From positions 496,001 through 560,000 of the forward strand of contig NZ_OW659496.1 in NCBI RefSeq assembly GCF_940143175.1: DNA of 64,000 nucleotides, read 5' to 3'. Below are positions 9,813 through 32,862 of this stretch, in pieces. Position 1 is the stretch's first letter. Each line of letters opens with the position of its first letter. This DNA comes from Erysipelothrix amsterdamensis (GTDB lineage Bacteria; Bacillota_I; Bacilli_A; Erysipelotrichales; Erysipelotrichaceae). The position numbers and the translations under genes are program-made. The notes beneath the pieces were generated by a model. That model ran no database searches and was not told the DNA's origin. It worked only from the letters and a program-made list of their open reading frames with translations.

Positions 9813-9838
9813 AAGGATGCGAAAGCATCCTTTTTTTA
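9813..9838 (+). terminator. Terminator of the pdh operon
   Basis: AAGGATGC-GAAA-GCATCCTT is followed by a T-run; GNRA-type tetraloop, 8-bp stem, 11 nt after the pdhD stop. Confidence 0.9.
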
Positions 9839-10104: not shown

Positions 10105-10132
10105 TTGACAAATTTTCTGTATCCTATATAAT
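10105..10132 (+). promoter_or_regulatory. oppA promoter
   Basis: Consensus TTGACA (10105-10110) and TATAAT (10127-10132) with a 16-nt spacer, 60 nt upstream of the oppA start codon. Confidence 0.75.
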
Positions 10133-10192
10133 ACATTCATACAGTATCACTTATCTGTATCAATGTTTGACAACAAAAGGAGGAGAATTACC

Positions 10193-11971
10193 ATGAAAAA
10201 ATTAATGATTGCATTCGTTGCAGCGTTATTGGTTCTTACTGGTTGTGGATCACAAGGTTCATCCAGTACATTAACGGTTGCAGCCCCTGCTTCACAAAAT
10301 GGTGACTTTGTGGCAGGGTTCGGATCAAATGCCTATGACCGATGGGCAACTAACTTAATGCACGTTGGTGCAAGCGTTTTCTATATTGATCGCGATACTT
10401 CGGAGATCAAGCCAAATCCTAACTTCGTAGAAAGTCACGAAGTAAAAGCAGACAGCGAAGGAAATAAAACTTATACCTTCAAAATCAAAGGTGGCAACAA
10501 ATACTCTGATGGAACAGAGATCACAGCAAAAGACTACGTTATGGCTATGTTGTTCCGTACACATCCAGCTTGGATGAAAGTTGCATCAATGGAAAGTACC
10601 GGAGACGAACTTTTAGGATACAACGCATATAGTACAGGGGAATCAAAAGTTTTCGAAGGGGTTAAATTAATCGATGACAACACATTCTCATTAACAATTG
10701 ATAAAGCAAACTTGCCTTACTACTTTGAAGCAAGTAAAGCGGATATCTCACCTGAACCAATGCATGTTTGGTTTAAGGATGCTAAATTAAATGCTGAAGG
10801 AAATGCATTCGACAACACACCTGAAGAAATTCAAGCAGCTGTTGAATATGTTTCAACAACTGAACGATACAAACCAACTGTAGTAGTCGGTGCGTATAAG
10901 TTAGAAAGCTATGAAAATGGTACAACAATTCTTGTTAAAAATGATCAATATGCAGGAAACTACGAAGGTAAAAAACCTGAAGTTGAAAAAGTTGTAATCC
11001 GTCAAGTTGACTCAAACGTTACAGTACAAGCGATCGAAAAAGGTGAAGTTGATTTATCACCAGGTAACATCGAAGGTGAATACATCAATAAAGCAAAAGA
11101 ACTTGAATTACAAACAGTTAACTATCCACGTAATGGATTCGGTAACATCACATTAAAAGCTAACAAAGGACCTACTCAATATAAAGAAGTACGTCAATCA
11201 ATTGGTTACATGTTAAACCGTAACGAATTTGTTCAAAAAATTGCTGGTGGATACGGTTCTGTAGTTAACGGACCATTTGGACTATCACAATGGTTCTATA
11301 AAGATAACAAGGACAAGATTGAAAGTTCACTTATTGACTATACTTACAACATTACTAAAGCAAACGAATTACTCGATCAATCAATCTACAAATTCGAAAA
11401 AGATGGTGTAACACCATTTGATGCAAGTAAAGCAAGTAAAGATTATGCTCGTTACGATGCAGATGGAAATAAACTTGTTGTTAAACACTTTGGTTCTGAA
11501 AAGAACTCAGTAACAGATTTAATTGTTTCTCAATTAGTTCCTGCAGCTGAAAAAGCTGGTATGGAATACTACATTGAGCAAGGAGAATTTGCTACATTAG
11601 GTGCATACATGCAAGGACGTGAAGAGAATGACTTTAATGCATTTAACCTTGCAACATCATTCACATCACTATACGATCCATGGCAAAACCATTCAAAATA
11701 TGTTGGTACAGGTTTAAACTGGAGTGATATTTCAGATCCAGAACTTGATGCAGCTATTGAAAAGGTACGTCGTATTGAACCAGGAAACCGTGAAGCTTAT
11801 TCAGAAGCAGTTGTAGAATACTTCCAACTTTGGAATGATCTCTTGTTCCAAATTCCTCTCTACTCAAATCTATACCATGATATCGCGTCAAACCGAGTTA
11901 AAGGTTTAGAAAAAGTAACACCAGAGATGGACTGGTCAAAAACTATAGAATATATCTCAATCGAAGGATAA
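10193..11971 (+). CDS. oppA: Oligopeptide ABC transporter, substrate-binding lipoprotein
   Basis: 592 aa SBP_bac_5 family protein that captures peptides outside the cell and delivers them to OppBC. A lipoprotein signal peptide (KKLMIAFVAALLVLTGC) ends in a lipobox with the lipidated Cys near residue 19. The mature part contains the typical YTFKIKGGNKYSDGTEITAKDY segment and a VVVGAYKLESYENG segment. I chose the ATG at 10193 because AAAGGAGG precedes it and the signal peptide starts there. The gene is followed by a strong hairpin before oppB, an arrangement that often keeps binding-protein mRNA in excess of permease mRNA. Confidence 0.93.
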   Translation: MKKLMIAFVAALLVLTGCGSQGSSSTLTVAAPASQNGDFVAGFGSNAYDRWATNLMHVGASVFYIDRDTSEIKPNPNFVESHEVKADSEGNKTYTFKIKGGNKYSDGTEITAKDYVMAMLFRTHPAWMKVASMESTGDELLGYNAYSTGESKVFEGVKLIDDNTFSLTIDKANLPYYFEASKADISPEPMHVWFKDAKLNAEGNAFDNTPEEIQAAVEYVSTTERYKPTVVVGAYKLESYENGTTILVKNDQYAGNYEGKKPEVEKVVIRQVDSNVTVQAIEKGEVDLSPGNIEGEYINKAKELELQTVNYPRNGFGNITLKANKGPTQYKEVRQSIGYMLNRNEFVQKIAGGYGSVVNGPFGLSQWFYKDNKDKIESSLIDYTYNITKANELLDQSIYKFEKDGVTPFDASKASKDYARYDADGNKLVVKHFGSEKNSVTDLIVSQLVPAAEKAGMEYYIEQGEFATLGAYMQGREENDFNAFNLATSFTSLYDPWQNHSKYVGTGLNWSDISDPELDAAIEKVRRIEPGNREAYSEAVVEYFQLWNDLLFQIPLYSNLYHDIASNRVKGLEKVTPEMDWSKTIEYISIEG

Positions 11972-11995: not shown

Positions 11996-12029
11996 ACTAT
12001 AAGAAGTGTCAATCGGCACTTCTTATAGT
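11996..12029 (+). terminator. Intergenic hairpin between oppA and oppB (processing or partial termination)
   Basis: A perfect 13-bp stem ACTATAAGAAGTG / CACTTCTTATAGT with an 8-nt loop lies between oppA and oppB. No U-tract follows, so it is more likely an mRNA-stabilising or partial-termination element than a full terminator. Confidence 0.7.
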
Positions 12030-12050
12030 CGTGTTAAAAGGAGAAAAACG

Positions 12051-13022
12051 ATGTTTAAGTATATGATAAAACGGATTATGTCGTTGATTCCTGTTGTGAT
12101 CATCATTTCAATCATGCTATTTTCATTAGTGAAAATGATGCCTGGTGATCCCGTAATAGGAATGATAAACCCAGCGATTAAAGATCCAGTACAATACCAA
12201 AGGGCTTATGATGAAGCTGCAGAGCGCATCGGTCATAACAAGCCACTCCCAGAACAATATGTTCGCTGGGTAAAAAACACACTTTCGGGTGATTTAGGGA
12301 TTTCAACATCTAAAAATAAACCCGTAAAAGAGGTTATTGCAACACCACTAAAAAATACAGTATTTCTTAATATAATTTCTACAACAATTGCGTTTGTTAT
12401 CTCAATTATTGTAGGTATTAAATCAGCCGTGAATCGTGGCGGAAAATTTGATAAGTTTTGGCAAGTCTTTTCACTTGTCGGAATGTCAATGCCAACATTG
12501 TTAATCTCGATCTTGTTAATTTACTTCTTCGCAATTAAATTAAGCATCTTCCCTACAGGTGGGATGCCACTTGCTGGAACTACAGGGATTGCATATGTGG
12601 GTCAATGGTTCCGTTATGCAGCCTTACCAATTATCACCTTAACCATTGGTTCATTTGCATCGACAATTCGATATGTCCGAAATGCAATGATTGAAGTGTT
12701 AAACAGTGATTATATTCGTACTGCACGTGCTAAAGGGTTATCAGGAAAAGTCATTGTCTATTCGCATGCGTTTAGAAATGCTCTAATTCCAGTTGTAACG
12801 GTTCTTGCAGGTTCGATTGCTGGTATTTTTGGGGGTGCCGCAATTACCGAACAGATCTTCTCATGGAACGGGATTGGAAACGTCTTGATTCAAGGAGTTG
12901 GTAGTCGTGACCTCATGCTTGTATTAGCAATGAACATGTTCTATGCAATCCTATCACTCGTTTCAAACATTGTTATGGATATTGGATACGCGATGGTTGA
13001 CCCACGTGTTAAATTAGATTAG
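12051..13022 (+). CDS. oppB: Oligopeptide ABC transporter permease OppB
   Basis: 323 aa, six membrane helices, first at ~8-30. The coupling (EAA) loop YIRTARAKGLSGKVIVYSHAFRNA is intact at ~225-245 and contacts an ATPase subunit. The first extracellular loop contains the family segment MPGDPV followed by LPEQYVRWVKNTLSGDLG. AAAGGAG precedes the ATG at 12051; a longer in-frame reading would run back into the intergenic hairpin. The gene lies 10 nt before oppC. Confidence 0.93.
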   Translation: MFKYMIKRIMSLIPVVIIISIMLFSLVKMMPGDPVIGMINPAIKDPVQYQRAYDEAAERIGHNKPLPEQYVRWVKNTLSGDLGISTSKNKPVKEVIATPLKNTVFLNIISTTIAFVISIIVGIKSAVNRGGKFDKFWQVFSLVGMSMPTLLISILLIYFFAIKLSIFPTGGMPLAGTTGIAYVGQWFRYAALPIITLTIGSFASTIRYVRNAMIEVLNSDYIRTARAKGLSGKVIVYSHAFRNALIPVVTVLAGSIAGIFGGAAITEQIFSWNGIGNVLIQGVGSRDLMLVLAMNMFYAILSLVSNIVMDIGYAMVDPRVKLD

Positions 13023-13032
13023 GGGTTTTGAT

Positions 13033-14892
13033 ATGGACAACAATAAGAAAAATTCATTTTGGACAAGTATCAAATCGATGTTTGCTAATCTGTTTAAGAG
13101 CGGTGGGCAACGACGCGAAGAACTTGAAGATTTAATCGCTGATGATGTGGTAATTAGCCCATCAAAACAAATTGCGAGAAACTTTTTTGAAAATAAATTA
13201 GGTGTTACAGGACTTGTAGCATTCATATTAATATTTGTGGTTGTATTTGGTACCACAACATTTAGACCGTATAATTCATACGATCATGAAACAGTATTAA
13301 ATAACTTAGCGCCTGGGACAAAGTATTTAAATATTCCCAAGGAAATACAAGGCAAAAACATTGATACAATAAGCAGTGGTACTTCATACTCTGTTGCATT
13401 AGATGATGCAGGAAAAGTACATTTCTGGGGACAACGCCCTGATAAGAAATTTAAAGTGGATCAAATCGTTGAAAAAACTAAGAATAGTAAAATTAAGTCA
13501 CTTGCGTCAGGAGATAAATTTGTTGTTGCAGTCACCGAAAACAATCAATTTATTGGTGTAGGTGAAAATACATTCTCTCAAACAGAACTACCATTTGATG
13601 TCATGGAAGAACTTGGTAGTGACAACATTGTTAAAGTAGCAGCAGGAAAACGTTTTACTGCGATTGTTACAGATACAGGAAAAATCTATACATGGGGTAG
13701 TGTTCTTGAAAACAACCTCGATAATATTCCGAAAAGCATCCAAGGTCGTGTTAAAGATATCGCAATTGGACAATTTAACATCATCGCTTTACTTGATGAC
13801 GGTTCATTGACAGCATTTGGTCAAGGTGGTACTGAAGTAGGTGCCATTCCGACAGAATTAACAGATGGTTCTGTAAAAGTTACTCAAGTAGAACTTACTA
13901 AGACTTCAGCAATGGCTTTAGATGCTGATGGTAATGTTCATACATGGGGAGCACACGGTAAATATCAAAGCATTCCAGAACTTGATGGTAAAGTAGTGCA
14001 AATTGCATCAACCTTATCATCATTTAACGCACTTACAGAATCTGGAAGTGTTTATGCTTGGGGTGAAGGTAAATTTAATTTAACGGATGTTCCATCATCA
14101 GTAACAAACGTTAAAAACAAACAAATTTTCTCAGATCATTTCCAATCATTTGCTGTGAGCGAAGATAATCAAATTAATGGTTGGGGTAACAAAGGTTTTA
14201 TCTTGGGAACGGATGACATGGGACGCTCAATTGGAGAACGCTTGCTTTATGGTGGTCGTATCTCATTAACAGTTGGTGCGATTTCAATGATTATTTCTAC
14301 CCTCATCGGTGTGCTTGTTGGTTTAATTGCTGGATTCTACGGTGGTTGGGTTGATAACTTACTCATGCGTATTGCTGAAGTTATTAGTGCTTTCCCATTC
14401 TTACCGCTTGCAATTACCTTATCGGCTTTATTACCTTCCTCAACAACACAATCACAACGTCTTGCGATGATTATGGTTATTTTAGGGGTAATCTCTTGGC
14501 CGGGTGTTGCACGTCTTGTACGTGGCCAAATCCTAGCTGAACGTGAGAAAGATTTCGTTCTTGCTGCACGTGCATTAGGACTGAAAGAAAAAACAATTAT
14601 TATTCGCCATATTTTACCAAGTGTATTTAACTTTATTATTGTTAATATGACACTTGGATATGCATCAAGCTTACTTACAGAAGCTGGATTGTCATATTTA
14701 GGATTTGGTGTTAAGCCACCTTCACCATCATGGGGTAATATGCTCAATGGTGTTGCAAATACAACAGTTATTGAAAATTACTGGTGGCAATGGCTTCTAC
14801 CAGCACTCTGCGTTATGCTTACAGCCTTGTCTGTTAACTTAATGGGAGATGCACTTCGCGATGCAATGGATCCGAAGTCGAACCAGAAGTAG
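13033..14892 (+). CDS. oppC: Oligopeptide ABC transporter permease OppC with an inserted seven-repeat RCC1-like beta-propeller
   Basis: 619 aa, about twice the usual ~300. Order: cytoplasmic N-terminus; first membrane helix ~57-75; insert of about 300 residues; then a complete permease core from LGTDDMGRSIGERLLYGGRIS (~391 on) with five more helices and the EAA loop FVLAARALGLKEKTIIIRHI. The insert holds seven repeats of the RCC1 type beginning near 116, 160, 205, 246, 289, 328 and 368, each with the pattern G..S.AL...G.v..WG (for example TAIVTDTGKIYTWG, NALTESGSVYAWG). Seven blades make a closed propeller. By normal OppC topology this loop faces outside, next to the docking surface for OppA. 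The frame is continuous with no sign of a fusion artefact. Function of the insert is unknown to me. Confidence 0.93.
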   Translation: MDNNKKNSFWTSIKSMFANLFKSGGQRREELEDLIADDVVISPSKQIARNFFENKLGVTGLVAFILIFVVVFGTTTFRPYNSYDHETVLNNLAPGTKYLNIPKEIQGKNIDTISSGTSYSVALDDAGKVHFWGQRPDKKFKVDQIVEKTKNSKIKSLASGDKFVVAVTENNQFIGVGENTFSQTELPFDVMEELGSDNIVKVAAGKRFTAIVTDTGKIYTWGSVLENNLDNIPKSIQGRVKDIAIGQFNIIALLDDGSLTAFGQGGTEVGAIPTELTDGSVKVTQVELTKTSAMALDADGNVHTWGAHGKYQSIPELDGKVVQIASTLSSFNALTESGSVYAWGEGKFNLTDVPSSVTNVKNKQIFSDHFQSFAVSEDNQINGWGNKGFILGTDDMGRSIGERLLYGGRISLTVGAISMIISTLIGVLVGLIAGFYGGWVDNLLMRIAEVISAFPFLPLAITLSALLPSSTTQSQRLAMIMVILGVISWPGVARLVRGQILAEREKDFVLAARALGLKEKTIIIRHILPSVFNFIIVNMTLGYASSLLTEAGLSYLGFGVKPPSPSWGNMLNGVANTTVIENYWWQWLLPALCVMLTALSVNLMGDALRDAMDPKSNQK

Positions 14893-14950: not shown

Positions 14951-16438
14951 ATGGAAAATAAAGATAATCGCGTTCTCATAAAGGTTGAACACTTACAAAA
15001 ATATTTCCCAATTAAAAAATCCAGTGTTTTCCAACGTAAACAAGAATATGTAAAAGCCAACAAAGATATCTCAATTGAAATTTTTGAAGGTGAAACATTA
15101 GGACTTGTTGGAGAATCCGGTTGTGGTAAATCCACGTTTGGTCGTACATTAATTCAATTGTACGATCAAACAGGTGGTGTATCACTTTATTATGGTGAAA
15201 CAATTGAAGAAATGATGCCTGAGTACGTACGCGGAGTATATAAATCAATACCAAAAGTTTTTGGTAAACATGATGCAGAATACAAAGCGATTAAAGACCT
15301 TGAATCAAAAATTGAAGGAACATCAGGCGAAGAATTTATTGAACTTAATGAATCTTTGCGTCTTTTAAAGATTGCATATGAGACAACATACGGAAATATT
15401 TTCCGTCTTGCAGGTGGACTTCTTGTTCATGATAATCTGAACGAAGTGAGTAAATTGCTTCTTTCAAAATATCAAAAAGGGAGTGCAGTAGCGAAGTTAC
15501 ATAAAGAACTTGAAATGGAAACATTGCGCAATACCATGCATGATAAAAAAGCAAATGGTAATGTATCAAGTTTAAAAGAAAAATTAGCAGCAGCTCAAAA
15601 AGAGCTTGATGACGTTAATGTGGTTATTAACGAAATGAAGGCAAAATTATCATCACATGATAATTTTGAAGAATATGAATCTTTACTTGATGATGGTATC
15701 GATTTATCATCATTAAACAAACAAGAGATGCGTTTCTTACGTAAGGATTTACAAATTATTTTCCAAGATCCATATTCATCACTTGATCCTCGTTTTACCG
15801 TAGGAAACATCATTGGAGAAGGGCTGATTGCTCATAAACTCTTCAAGGATGCAAACAGTGACGAATACAACGAATACATTATTGATATAATGGAAAAATG
15901 TGGACTTCAGAAAGAATTTATACACCGTTATCCTCACCAATTTTCAGGTGGACAACGTCAACGTATTGGGATTGCTCGTGCATTAGCGCTTCGTCCTAAG
16001 TTTATCGTTTGTGATGAAGCTGTTAGTGCATTGGATGTATCCATCCAGTCTCAAGTTATTAACTTACTTCAAGATCTTAAAGATGAGCACAACTTAACAT
16101 ACCTATTCATTACCCATGACTTGGGTGTGGTACGTTATATTAGTGACCGTATTGGTGTTATGTATTTTGGTAACTTGGTTGAACTTGCACCTGCTGAAGA
16201 AATCTTCAGTAATCCGCAACATCCATATACCAAACAATTGCTTGCAGCGATTCCTCGAATGGAAAAAGATGAAGCAGAGATTGCGGAACTTCTTAAAGTT
16301 GTTCCAAATGGCATTTTCGATTTCACATTTGAAGAAACTGGTGAAGCTGATAAAGATTGGTATGAAGTGGCACCAGATCACTTTGTAGCATGTCGTCTTC
16401 TCAATGCTGAAGCGAAAAATAAGAAAGGAGGTATGTAA
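14951..16438 (+). CDS. oppF: Oligopeptide ABC transporter ATPase OppF with a large helical insertion
   Basis: 495 aa, against ~310-330 for typical OppF. Walker A GESGCGKST (~54-62), Q-loop IIFQDPYSSLDP (~269-280), signature FSGGQRQR, Walker B FIVCDEAVSALD and the H-loop ITHD are all present, so ATP hydrolysis is expected. Between Walker A and the Q-loop (~85-252) are about 165 extra residues, predicted mostly helical and charged; the stretch SSLKEKLAAAQKELDDVN and after looks like coiled coil. RKDLQIIFQDPYSSLDPR identifies OppF rather than OppD. The C-terminus lacks the cysteine-rich motif of many OppF proteins and instead has DWYEVAPDHFVAC. The gap to oppC is 58 nt; the next gene follows after 2 nt. 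Confidence 0.92.
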   Translation: MENKDNRVLIKVEHLQKYFPIKKSSVFQRKQEYVKANKDISIEIFEGETLGLVGESGCGKSTFGRTLIQLYDQTGGVSLYYGETIEEMMPEYVRGVYKSIPKVFGKHDAEYKAIKDLESKIEGTSGEEFIELNESLRLLKIAYETTYGNIFRLAGGLLVHDNLNEVSKLLLSKYQKGSAVAKLHKELEMETLRNTMHDKKANGNVSSLKEKLAAAQKELDDVNVVINEMKAKLSSHDNFEEYESLLDDGIDLSSLNKQEMRFLRKDLQIIFQDPYSSLDPRFTVGNIIGEGLIAHKLFKDANSDEYNEYIIDIMEKCGLQKEFIHRYPHQFSGGQRQRIGIARALALRPKFIVCDEAVSALDVSIQSQVINLLQDLKDEHNLTYLFITHDLGVVRYISDRIGVMYFGNLVELAPAEEIFSNPQHPYTKQLLAAIPRMEKDEAEIAELLKVVPNGIFDFTFEETGEADKDWYEVAPDHFVACRLLNAEAKNKKGGM

Positions 16439-16440
16439 GC

Positions 16441-17382
16441 ATGGCTTTATTAGAAATTAAAAACCTACATACCTACTTTGATACAAAACGTGGCTTGGTA
16501 AAAGCTGTTAATGGTGTTTCTTTCTCTGTAGATGAAGGACGTACATTGGGTATTGTTGGTGAATCAGGAAGTGGAAAGAGTCAGACAGCAATGTCGATCT
16601 TACAATTGTTTGAATCAAACCAACGTATCTATGAAGGTGAGATTATCTTTAACGGTGAAGTTCTATCGGATTATACGGAAGAACAATTACGTAAAGTTCG
16701 TGGAAATGATATTTCTATGATTTTCCAAGAACCGATGACAAGTTTAAACCCGGTCTTCACGGTTGAACGTCAAATTAGTGAAGTATTAATGCTTCACCAA
16801 GGTATGACTAAGCAAGAAGCGAGTCAACGCGCACTGGAAATGCTTGCATCCGTTAAAATTCCTCGTCCAGAGAAAGTTCTAAAAAACTATCCTCACCAAT
16901 TATCAGGTGGGATGAGTCAACGTGTTATGATTGCGATGGCGCTTGCATGTAATCCTAAGCTTTTAATCGCTGATGAGCCTACAACGGCTCTTGATGTTAT
17001 TATTCAAGCAGAGATTCTTAAACTAATGAATGATCTTAAAACAGATTACAACACATCAATTCTCTTTATTACTCATGACCTCGGTGTTATCAGTCAAATG
17101 GCAGATGATGTTATTGTTATGTATGGTGGTAAGATTGTTGAAGCGGCACCAATCAAAGCAATCTTTTCAGATGCGAAACATCCATATACGAAGCGCTTAT
17201 TAAACGCGTTCTTAAAAACGGATATTAGTGGACGTAAAGATCGTAAAGAAGTTGAAGCGGATCTTTATTCTTCAGAAAACGAAGTTTATGACTTCTATAA
17301 CTTTAAGACAAACGCAATTGCGGATGTTGATTGGCATTGTGTTGGTGAAAACCACTACGTTGCATGTAATTTAAAGAAATAA
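16441..17382 (+). CDS. oppD: Oligopeptide ABC transporter ATPase OppD
   Basis: 313 aa. Walker A GESGSGKSQ, Q-loop IFQEPMTSLNPVFT, signature LSGGMSQRVMIAMAL (typical of OppD/DppD), Walker B LLIADEPTTALD and H-loop ITHDLG are intact. It has no insertion, unlike its partner OppF. The C-terminus ends VDWHCVGENHYVAC, closely parallel to the OppF C-terminus (DWYEVAPDHFVAC), so both subunits share a variant tail in place of the usual cysteine cluster. GGAGG lies inside the end of oppF. Confidence 0.93.
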   Translation: MALLEIKNLHTYFDTKRGLVKAVNGVSFSVDEGRTLGIVGESGSGKSQTAMSILQLFESNQRIYEGEIIFNGEVLSDYTEEQLRKVRGNDISMIFQEPMTSLNPVFTVERQISEVLMLHQGMTKQEASQRALEMLASVKIPRPEKVLKNYPHQLSGGMSQRVMIAMALACNPKLLIADEPTTALDVIIQAEILKLMNDLKTDYNTSILFITHDLGVISQMADDVIVMYGGKIVEAAPIKAIFSDAKHPYTKRLLNAFLKTDISGRKDRKEVEADLYSSENEVYDFYNFKTNAIADVDWHCVGENHYVACNLKK

Positions 17383-17573: not shown

Positions 17574-17584
17574 AGACACTAAGG

Positions 17585-17612
17585 AAGCCGTCTCAGGACG
17601 GCTTTCATTTAT
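17585..17612 (+). terminator. Terminator of the opp operon
   Basis: AAGCCGTC-TCAG-GACGGCTT is followed by TCATTTATTT; strong GC stem, moderate U-tract. Confidence 0.8.
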
Positions 17613-30873: not shown

Positions 30874-30900
30874 AGAAAAAGAAAGGAGGATTTATAGGAA

Positions 30901-31030
30901 TACAAGCGCCTGGCTCATAGAGAGCGACGAGGAAAGAGGAGAATCGAGACTTCGGCGGATGCCTCTTCGGTTATATGGAATCGTAAGATAAGGACAAATA
31001 GAACAAATCCCTTATCAACCATAATCTTAA
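30901..31030 (+). ncRNA. glmS ribozyme/riboswitch
   Basis: The 5' leader of glmS contains the hallmark pieces in order: AAGCGCCTGG (cleavage expected between A30905 and G30906), GACGAGG, ATCGA, and CTTCGGCGGATGCCTC, followed by a pairing GATAAGG / CCTTATC that fits the distal stem. Glucosamine-6-phosphate acts as cofactor for self-cleavage, which leads to mRNA decay and feedback control of amino-sugar synthesis. Confidence 0.95.
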
Positions 31031-31050: not shown

Positions 31051-32862
31051 ATGTGTGGAATTGTAGGATATGTTGGCACGCGAAATGCTGTCGACGTTTT
31101 AAGCGTGGGATTATCCCACTTAGAGTACCGAGGGTATGACTCAGTTGGTTTAGCGATTCAAGAAAGAAAAAAAATAAAAACGTATAAAGAAAAAGGAAAA
31201 ATTAAGAATTTAGAAAAGCAACTTGAAACAGCTCGTAAAGGTGAACCTTCCTGTGGTATTGGACATACGCGTTGGGCAACGCATGGTCGTGCGACTAAAA
31301 ATAACGCACACCCACATGGCACAGAAAATGTAGTGTTGGTACATAATGGCATTATTGAAAATTATTTAGAGTTGAAAGAAGAATTATTAGCACTTGGTTA
31401 CAGTTTTGTATCAGAGACAGATTCTGAGGTTGCGGCCAAGTATTTGGATTATCTAATAAAGCAATCAATCTCAAATCAAAAAGCCATTGAATTACTGTGT
31501 GACCGGATTCGTGGTAGTTATGCTTTTGCGATCATGTTTTTAAACGAACAGGATGTTCTTTATGGTGTTCGGCACGGCAGTCCATTGTGTTTAGGTATTG
31601 GAAAAGAAGAAATGTTTCTCGGTTCGGATATGTCACCCATTTTGAGTTATACCAATGAGTACATGCTGCTCGATGATCGTGAGATTGTTCGTCTTGAATC
31701 GGATTCGTTTGTGGTGTACCGATCCGATGGTATCGAAGTTAAAGATAAAGTAATTCATTTTGCGAATTGGAATCAAGAATCATCCGATCGACAATTGTTT
31801 GAGCATTTTATGCTTAAGGAAATACATGAACAACCTGATGTACTTGATCGAACTTTACGAACTTATACACAAGCTGATGATGAGGGTTCGTTAAATGTTT
31901 CCTTGCCCATCCCGTGTGATTTCTTTACAAACATTAAAACCATCCACATTATTGCATGTGGAACGGCCCTTTATGCAGGGTTATGCGCAAAGTATTGGAT
32001 TGAAGATGAAACAGATTATCGAGTCATGATTCATACAGCAAGTGAGTTCCGCTATAATCCTTTAAAACTCAATGACGCTGATTGTGCATGGTTTATTTCT
32101 CAAAGTGGGGAAACAGCAGACAGTCTTGCGTGTTTACGCATGGTGTCGAAACAAGGAATTCGAACACTTGGAATTGTGAACTCTCAAGGGTCTTCAATTG
32201 CGCGTGAGGTCGATGTGTGTATTTATACCTGTGCGGGATTTGAAAAGTCAGTTGCAAGTACAAAAGCATATACGGCGCAGTTAGCGTTGCTTTATCTCAT
32301 CACCTTAGTACTTCAAGACGCGAAACATCCCCACCAAGCACTTGTCAAGCTTCAACAATGTATCACCGCTCAACAATCTTTACTTGAACAAAAAGATGAG
32401 ATTCAGATACTTGCACGAAAGTTTATAGATGTCTCGGCTGTGTTTTTCTTAGGTCGAGGTCTAGACTATGCGACGTCCGTTGAGGCATCGCTTAAACTGA
32501 AAGAAGTTTCCTATGTTATGAGTGATGCTTATCCAGCAGGAGAGTTAAAACATGGAACGCTTGCCTTGATTGATTCGGATGTTCTTTCTATTTTTACTTT
32601 AACGCAAAGGAACACCAAAGAAAAAACACTCAGCAATGTGCAAGAAGTTCAAGCAAGAGCGGGTACGGTTCTCATCATCAGCAGTGACGTTGATCTATCG
32701 AGTACTTATGACGAAGTTCTAACGATACCGAAGGTTGATGATGCATTGATGCCTTTTATTAGTGTGATTGCACATCAATTATTCGCGTATTATAGTGCAA
32801 ATATCAGAGACTGTGATATTGATTGTCCGCGTAATCTTGCGAAATCAGTTACAGTAGAATAA
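31051..32862 (+). CDS. glmS: Glutamine-fructose-6-phosphate aminotransferase (isomerizing)
   Basis: 603 aa. It makes glucosamine-6-phosphate for peptidoglycan. Cys2 of MCGIVGYVG is the N-terminal nucleophile of the glutaminase domain, with HTRWATHG and HNGIIENY typical of that domain (~1-235). Two SIS isomerase domains follow (IIACGTALYAG ~305; SQSGETADSL ~350; SVASTKAYTAQ ~395) and the C-terminus ends NLAKSVTVE, as in the family. AGGAGAT precedes the ATG. Feedback control by the ribozyme upstream. Confidence 0.96.
   Translation: MCGIVGYVGTRNAVDVLSVGLSHLEYRGYDSVGLAIQERKKIKTYKEKGKIKNLEKQLETARKGEPSCGIGHTRWATHGRATKNNAHPHGTENVVLVHNGIIENYLELKEELLALGYSFVSETDSEVAAKYLDYLIKQSISNQKAIELLCDRIRGSYAFAIMFLNEQDVLYGVRHGSPLCLGIGKEEMFLGSDMSPILSYTNEYMLLDDREIVRLESDSFVVYRSDGIEVKDKVIHFANWNQESSDRQLFEHFMLKEIHEQPDVLDRTLRTYTQADDEGSLNVSLPIPCDFFTNIKTIHIIACGTALYAGLCAKYWIEDETDYRVMIHTASEFRYNPLKLNDADCAWFISQSGETADSLACLRMVSKQGIRTLGIVNSQGSSIAREVDVCIYTCAGFEKSVASTKAYTAQLALLYLITLVLQDAKHPHQALVKLQQCITAQQSLLEQKDEIQILARKFIDVSAVFFLGRGLDYATSVEASLKLKEVSYVMSDAYPAGELKHGTLALIDSDVLSIFTLTQRNTKEKTLSNVQEVQARAGTVLIISSDVDLSSTYDEVLTIPKVDDALMPFISVIAHQLFAYYSANIRDCDIDCPRNLAKSVTVE

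Follow-up and report, generated by a model that had tools for sequence, protein, structure and literature searches.

In the usual view of Type I peptide importers, a substrate-binding protein (SBP) docks directly onto two permeases. Among the described systems, the OppC and DppC permeases of Escherichia coli (8z21, 8z1v-8z1y; PMC12136057) and Mycobacterium tuberculosis (8j5q-t, 8wd9) have a short periplasmic region between TM1 and TM2. Cryo-EM structures of DppBCDF revealed six helices per permease, with a periplasmic TM1-TM2 region and a cytoplasmic TM4-TM5 EAA coupling loop; in DppB the TM1-TM2 region forms a scoop motif reaching into the cleft of the SBP, and in E. coli DppC is in contact with the ATPase DppF (PMC12136057). 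A protein of a different kind, BLIP-II (beta-lactamase inhibitor protein II), is a secreted beta-propeller whose known job is the tight binding of another protein (PMC9218822). The locus presented here combines these two kinds of protein in one reading frame.

This locus lies in a stretch of 64,000 nucleotides of the Erysipelothrix amsterdamensis genome (the window), and all of its features are on the + strand. A consensus sigma-70-type promoter (TTGACA-16-TATAAT at 10105..10132, a consensus match only, at 12 of 12 positions) lies downstream of a terminator-like hairpin (9813-9832) and upstream of the gene of an OppA-like substrate-binding lipoprotein (10193..11971; SBP_bac_5, 4.8e-43; lipobox LTGC), whose likely start is the ATG at 10193, preceded by GGAGGAG (the listed ORF starts at 10163). 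It is followed by the OppB permease (12006..13022; BPD_transp_1, 5.1e-39; closest NCBIfam family Opp4B), which ends 10 bp upstream of a stop-free ORF of 619 codons (13033..14892), annotated here as an OppC permease with a propeller insert on the basis of the ORF, Pfam and an AlphaFold2 (AF2) model. Two Opp ATPase genes lie downstream, one OppF-type (495 aa, 14951..16438; closest solved chain 8z21_D of E. coli OppBCDF, Z 36.2) and one OppD-type (313 aa, 16441..17382; identified by NCBIfam search), and a terminator-like hairpin seen in the sequence (17583..17606) closes the operon. The genome holds a single SBP_bac_5 protein, that of this operon, and although 23 of its proteins carry BPD_transp_1, Opp queries matched only the operon OppB and OppC, which leaves this operon as the sole Opp/Dpp-type importer found there. 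No second RCC1_2 protein was found in the genome beside the propeller-bearing OppC.

Pfam recognised the two ends of the 619-aa protein as OppC_N (residues 42-94; 2e-6, 28.0 bits against a cut-off of 23.9) and BPD_transp_1 (426-615; 3.5e-30, 105.5 bits, cut-off 26.4). Between them, RCC1_2 (PF13540) was matched in four stretches (1.4e-28, 98.3 bits, cut-off 22), together with RCC1 (PF00415; 3.2e-8, 34.5 bits, cut-off 21.7), while the whole-domain RCC1 model PF25390 scored 117.9 bits, under its cut-off of 150. A blade-end motif occurs in six copies, compared to 0.48 expected by shuffling and a maximum of four in 2000 shuffles. Opp4C (NF045476) was the best-scoring NCBIfam permease family for the core (1.4e-95), although the score of 319.7 bits is below the equivalog cut-off of 350, the match spans residues 381-615 only and the Opp4C model is propeller-free. 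OppC_N, BPD_transp_1, the GTD..GR and EAA motifs and an OppABCDF-like operon are shared with the E. coli and M. tuberculosis OppC/DppC. Its domains, predicted membrane fold and operon (SBP, OppB, OppD and OppF) thus argue for an OppC-type oligopeptide permease.

The AF2 model, built from 57 homologues (mean pLDDT 85, mostly above 90 in the insert), predicts exactly seven three-stranded blades. From the N-terminus, membrane helix TM1 (residues 55-77; 13195..13263; AF2 helix, hydropathy and OppC_N) is followed by a linker (78-109; 13264..13359) with a conserved N-x-A-P-G motif, which aligns with the 'LAPGxEH' of insert-free OppC proteins. The seven-bladed RCC1/BLIP-II-type beta-propeller itself, supported by Pfam, AF2 and fold and profile matches, covers residues 110-385 (13360..14187; domain about 95-385). 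In the AF2 model it is divided into blade 1 (110-153, strands 110-133; 13360..13491), blade 2 (154-198, strands 154-177; 13492..13626), blade 3 (199-239, strands 199-222; 13627..13749), blade 4 (240-282, strands 240-263; 13750..13878), blade 5 (283-320, strands 283-306; 13879..13992), blade 6 (321-361, strands 321-344; 13993..14115) and blade 7 (362-385, strands 362-385; 14116..14187). The remainder (386-619; 14188..14889), delimited by BPD_transp_1 and by alignment to 8z21_B, comprises the linker NKGFI, the LGTDDMGR motif and the permease core, with the next membrane helix starting at residue 400.

Structure comparison of the insert with VIA-align placed BLIP-II at the top (3qi0_A, Z 31.4, rmsd 2.0 Å over 257 residues, with 1jtd and 3qhy tied), followed by UVR8 and HERC2; VIA-align and Foldseek together matched the fold to BLIP-II, UVR8 and RCC1 structures, and a sequence profile of the insert matched BLIP-II (1.5e-30) and RCC1. 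Over the BLIP-II entries (1jtd, 3qhy and 3qi0) the superposition reached Z 31 and rmsd 2.0-2.1 Å over 257-258 residues at 27% identity, and both domains are compact, bacterial, extracytoplasmic seven-bladed rings of ~270 residues. However, BLIP-II is a free inhibitor, whereas the present propeller belongs to a permease loop in a transport context, with no hint of beta-lactamase binding. The eukaryotic RCC1-like domains (RCC1, UVR8, HERC2 and RPGR) belong to the same superfamily by sequence and fold, but are longer (~360-400 residues), intracellular and have different partners. On the permease side, the whole fold of the E. coli and M. tuberculosis OppC/DppC aligned with the model (residues ~40-614, Z 24-28); E. 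coli OppC (8z21_B) gave Z 28.3 against residues 40-614, with 276 residues aligned on both sides of the insert and the propeller, which these permeases lack, skipped. As modelled, the product of the ORF is therefore an RCC1/BLIP-II superfamily propeller set in an otherwise ordinary OppC.

The EAA loop of this OppC lies at ~503-520, and counting the helices back from it on the DppBCDF topology places the propeller outside the membrane; by homology it would be extracellular, in the TM1-TM2 loop. The insertion site could be located exactly by alignment, within a short loop that in insert-free OppC proteins is 'LAPGxEH|LGTD': the junctions read LAPGTKYL ... GFILGTDDMGR here, and APSAEHWLGTD and APGGEHLLGTD in two OppCs from the same taxonomic family that lack the insert (L166 and L167, respectively). 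These results agree with a preliminary description of the locus, which had recognised seven complete RCC1-type repeats outside the membrane and proposed the AlphaFold analysis, in which the propeller and its linkers to TM1 and to the helix from residue 400 indeed appeared; only the repeat starts that it listed (116, 160, 205 and so on) need to be reread, since these positions correspond to the AB-turns of the blades rather than to blade starts. Three other OppCs without RCC1 (L168, L171 and L190) carry different extra sequence ahead of the GTD motif, which suggests that the TM1-TM2 loop repeatedly tolerates insertions.

The insert was used as a query against 60 near genomes, of which 16 were matched, fifteen of them (the window's own included) through long OppCs. 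Besides the window's genome, the propeller-bearing frame was thus present, at 600-640 aa, in 14 near genomes, and over all the independent genomes examined, complete as well as draft, the open frames measured 597-642 aa. A frame fusion or assembly artefact, one of the conditions under which the preliminary description would have been abandoned, is effectively ruled out by the recurrence of the same open frame in these independent genomes, and the low dN/dS across the insert and the single clade presented below also speak against it. In four of the 13 Erysipelothrix genomes the insert was not matched, so the propeller-bearing OppC is not universal in the genus. The sixteenth match (G014, L017 979-2724), in a related genus, is an RCC1-like extracytoplasmic protein with an HTH and a membrane helix, possibly a sensor.

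A scan of the genome collection returned 145 related loci, and 80 of these were retained; as a match had to include the propeller-permease junction, divergent cases would escape the scan. The hosts are Erysipelothrix and other Erysipelotrichaceae, Lachnospiraceae, Oscillospiraceae, Peptoniphilaceae and Acholeplasmataceae, and include Anaerococcus porci, the cultured Mollicute Peloplasma aerotolerans, other Mollicutes, many metagenome-assembled genomes (MAGs) from rumen and gut, and anaerobic-digester lineages. The full-length or near full-length architecture was found in about 20 of the 395 genomes of the class and in 14 of the 398 of the clostridial phylum. Three MAGs labelled as Chloroflexi or Anaerolineaceae also contain it (L046, L047 and L065); L046 falls among clostridial sequences on a short branch of a quick tree with all rows, so mislabelling or recent transfer is possible. 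OppB adjoins the propeller-bearing OppC in all 80 loci, an SBP was recognised upstream in 74 and OppD/F downstream in 76, and nine of the ten subunit gaps fall at contig ends. The exception is L065, where the contig reaches upstream and yet no SBP was recognised. A shorter and divergent propeller-bearing OppC of 538 aa was observed in L112.

A tree of the permease core only (residues 391 onwards) was computed from 46 propeller-bearing and 25 insert-free OppCs. A single branch separated all propeller-bearing proteins from the insert-free ones (bootstrap 100, SH-aLRT 98, recovered in 100% of 200 bootstrap trees); one acquisition followed by retention, a single change of state, is the simplest reading. 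The propeller was thus apparently acquired once, with the direction of the change unproved on this unrooted tree; the insert-free rows came from 31 genomes picked for absence of the insert, so rare losses within the clade could be missed. The nearest named relative in the tree is E. tonsillarum (99% identity in the core), and the nearest insert-free sisters in the quick tree are L166 and L167, which have 48-50% core identity and share the loop motif, but lack the propeller.

When the window species was compared with three close relatives, dN/dS was 0.040-0.048 in the insert and 0.009-0.033 in the core, and on these sequence comparisons the propeller is under purifying selection. At longer distances, identity to the window protein was 33-60% in the insert compared to 57-85% in the core, and mean conservation was 0.49 for the propeller compared to 0.66 for the permease core. 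The length of the insert is nearly constant (284-308 aa in 57 aligned sequences), and conservation is highest in the linkers and in blades 7 and 1; among the blades, 7 is the most and 4 the least conserved. These values bear on the idea that the propeller shields the transporter or acts as a host-facing decoy, either against antibodies or by binding host proteins. The domain is large and outside the membrane, and Erysipelothrix includes animal pathogens, but selection on it is strongly purifying and shows no diversification, its length is nearly constant, and it occurs in lineages from the rumen, the gut and anaerobic digesters as well as in Peloplasma aerotolerans, all of which makes such a role very improbable. 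Of the roles put forward in the preliminary description, host-protein capture and antibody shielding therefore fit poorly, while docking or gating of OppA stands as the best remaining one.

For the transporter as a whole, the data point to an OppABCDF-type oligopeptide importer that forms a distinct, apparently single-origin subfamily, in which the propeller quite possibly captures or orients the SBP. In this reading, which we tentatively prefer, the propeller would serve as an extracytoplasmic module for protein binding, capturing or orienting the SBP lipoprotein on the OppC half. Placed opposite the OppB scoop motif, it could increase the concentration of SBP locally or pick out SBP loaded with ligand ahead of the ATP-driven transfer. 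Such a role is supported by the protein-binding role of the fold, the position beside the SBP-docking face, the fixed operon with an SBP, the purifying selection and the conservation of the anchor edge. The conserved linkers and blades 7 and 1 are consistent with a functional anchor-proximal side, although this conservation could equally come from packing on the membrane domain. On the other hand, ordinary Opp/Dpp systems function without a propeller, and OppB already contacts the SBP. Covariation with the propeller in distance matrices also counts against SBP capture, as it does not single out the SBP (partial r of 0.20, compared to 0.23 for OppB and 0.25 for the insert in OppF described below).

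A less probable but realistic explanation is that the propeller recruits some other extracellular protein or large ligand, for example a secreted or cell-wall peptidase producing peptides beside the importer. BLIP-II and the eukaryotic RCC1-like domains are protein-binding scaffolds (PMC9218822), and the greater variability of the propeller than of the core is what would be expected if the partner differs by lineage. Three propellers have large insertions inside the ring (L116, L117 and L118; the L118 frame is 1149 aa, with a long helical-looking stretch), which also favours another partner. However, no recurrent non-Opp gene was seen in the collected operons, whose neighbours were searched for Opp subunits only, and a constant partner would need to be encoded elsewhere, with no candidate identified here.

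A second insert was found in the OppF-type ATPase of the same operon. Between Walker A and the Q-loop, AF2 and motif spacing delimit an all-helical insert (OppF residues ~83-248; 15197..15694), the helices of which span residues 85-243 and include three long ones predicted with high confidence (126-159, 163-196 and 203-233). It adds ~175 residues, with a Walker A-Q-loop spacing of ~222 in 70 of the 72 measurable loci with a propeller-bearing OppC. In contrast, the spacing is 43-47 in eight OppFs from propeller-free operons; the OppFs of the L166 and L167 operons and the E. coli and M. tuberculosis ATPases likewise lack the insert. In the two exceptions, L026 and L027, the propeller is present, but the OppF spacing is 47 and the helical insert is absent, so that these loci could serve as natural controls. 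No Pfam or NCBIfam family matched the insert except weak coiled-coil-like ones, and a fold search with OppF returned match lists filled by the ATPase core. The cysteines that ligate [4Fe-4S] in E. coli DppD/DppF appear to be largely lost in the window's OppF and OppD (14951-17382), but the consensus of the OppF alignment contains them.

Given the DppC-DppF contact in E. coli (PMC12136057), the propeller and the OppF insert would share one half-transporter, and we hypothesise that they act jointly. In combination with SBP capture, the helical insert, carried by the partner ATPase of OppC, may be a cytoplasmic counterpart that tunes coupling. A stricter form, in which the two inserts make up a coupled transmembrane control device allowing uptake only while the correct binding protein or ligand is bound to the propeller, is considered unlikely. 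The propeller could also be a regulatory or gating module that, with the OppF insert, senses outside conditions and sets transport activity. Co-occurrence of the inserts in 70 of 72 loci, their absence together in the eight propeller-free operons and their expected position on the same half all favour gating, and a sensing extracellular permease loop is known in the unrelated VraG (PMC7951975). Nevertheless, the propeller occurs in L026 and L027 in the absence of the OppF insert, and the window operon has no sensor kinase; we regard this role as fairly improbable.

No paper combining RCC1 with OppC, or RCC1 with Erysipelothrix, was found in the open literature searched, in line with the preliminary description, which knew of no RCC1-bearing permease. 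While the parts belong to known families, their combination, its single clade and the companion OppF insert are undescribed within that literature. Beyond what the preliminary description covered, the locus represents a widespread, apparently single-origin subfamily, present in many Bacillota from gut, rumen and environmental sources, with a second, co-occurring insert in OppF. One permease has gained a large and defined domain for protein binding, apparently in a single event, and has retained it in Bacillota and Mollicutes alongside an ATPase insert, which offers a natural test case for changes in SBP docking and coupling.

Regulatory elements were also searched for in the window. Control by CodY was rejected, as the window contains three CodY-like boxes compared to 1.8 expected by chance, and the genome has no CodY. 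No riboswitch or T-box was found for the opp operon at gathering threshold. Elsewhere in the window, a glmS riboswitch was identified at 30894-31026, upstream of an ORF at 31051.
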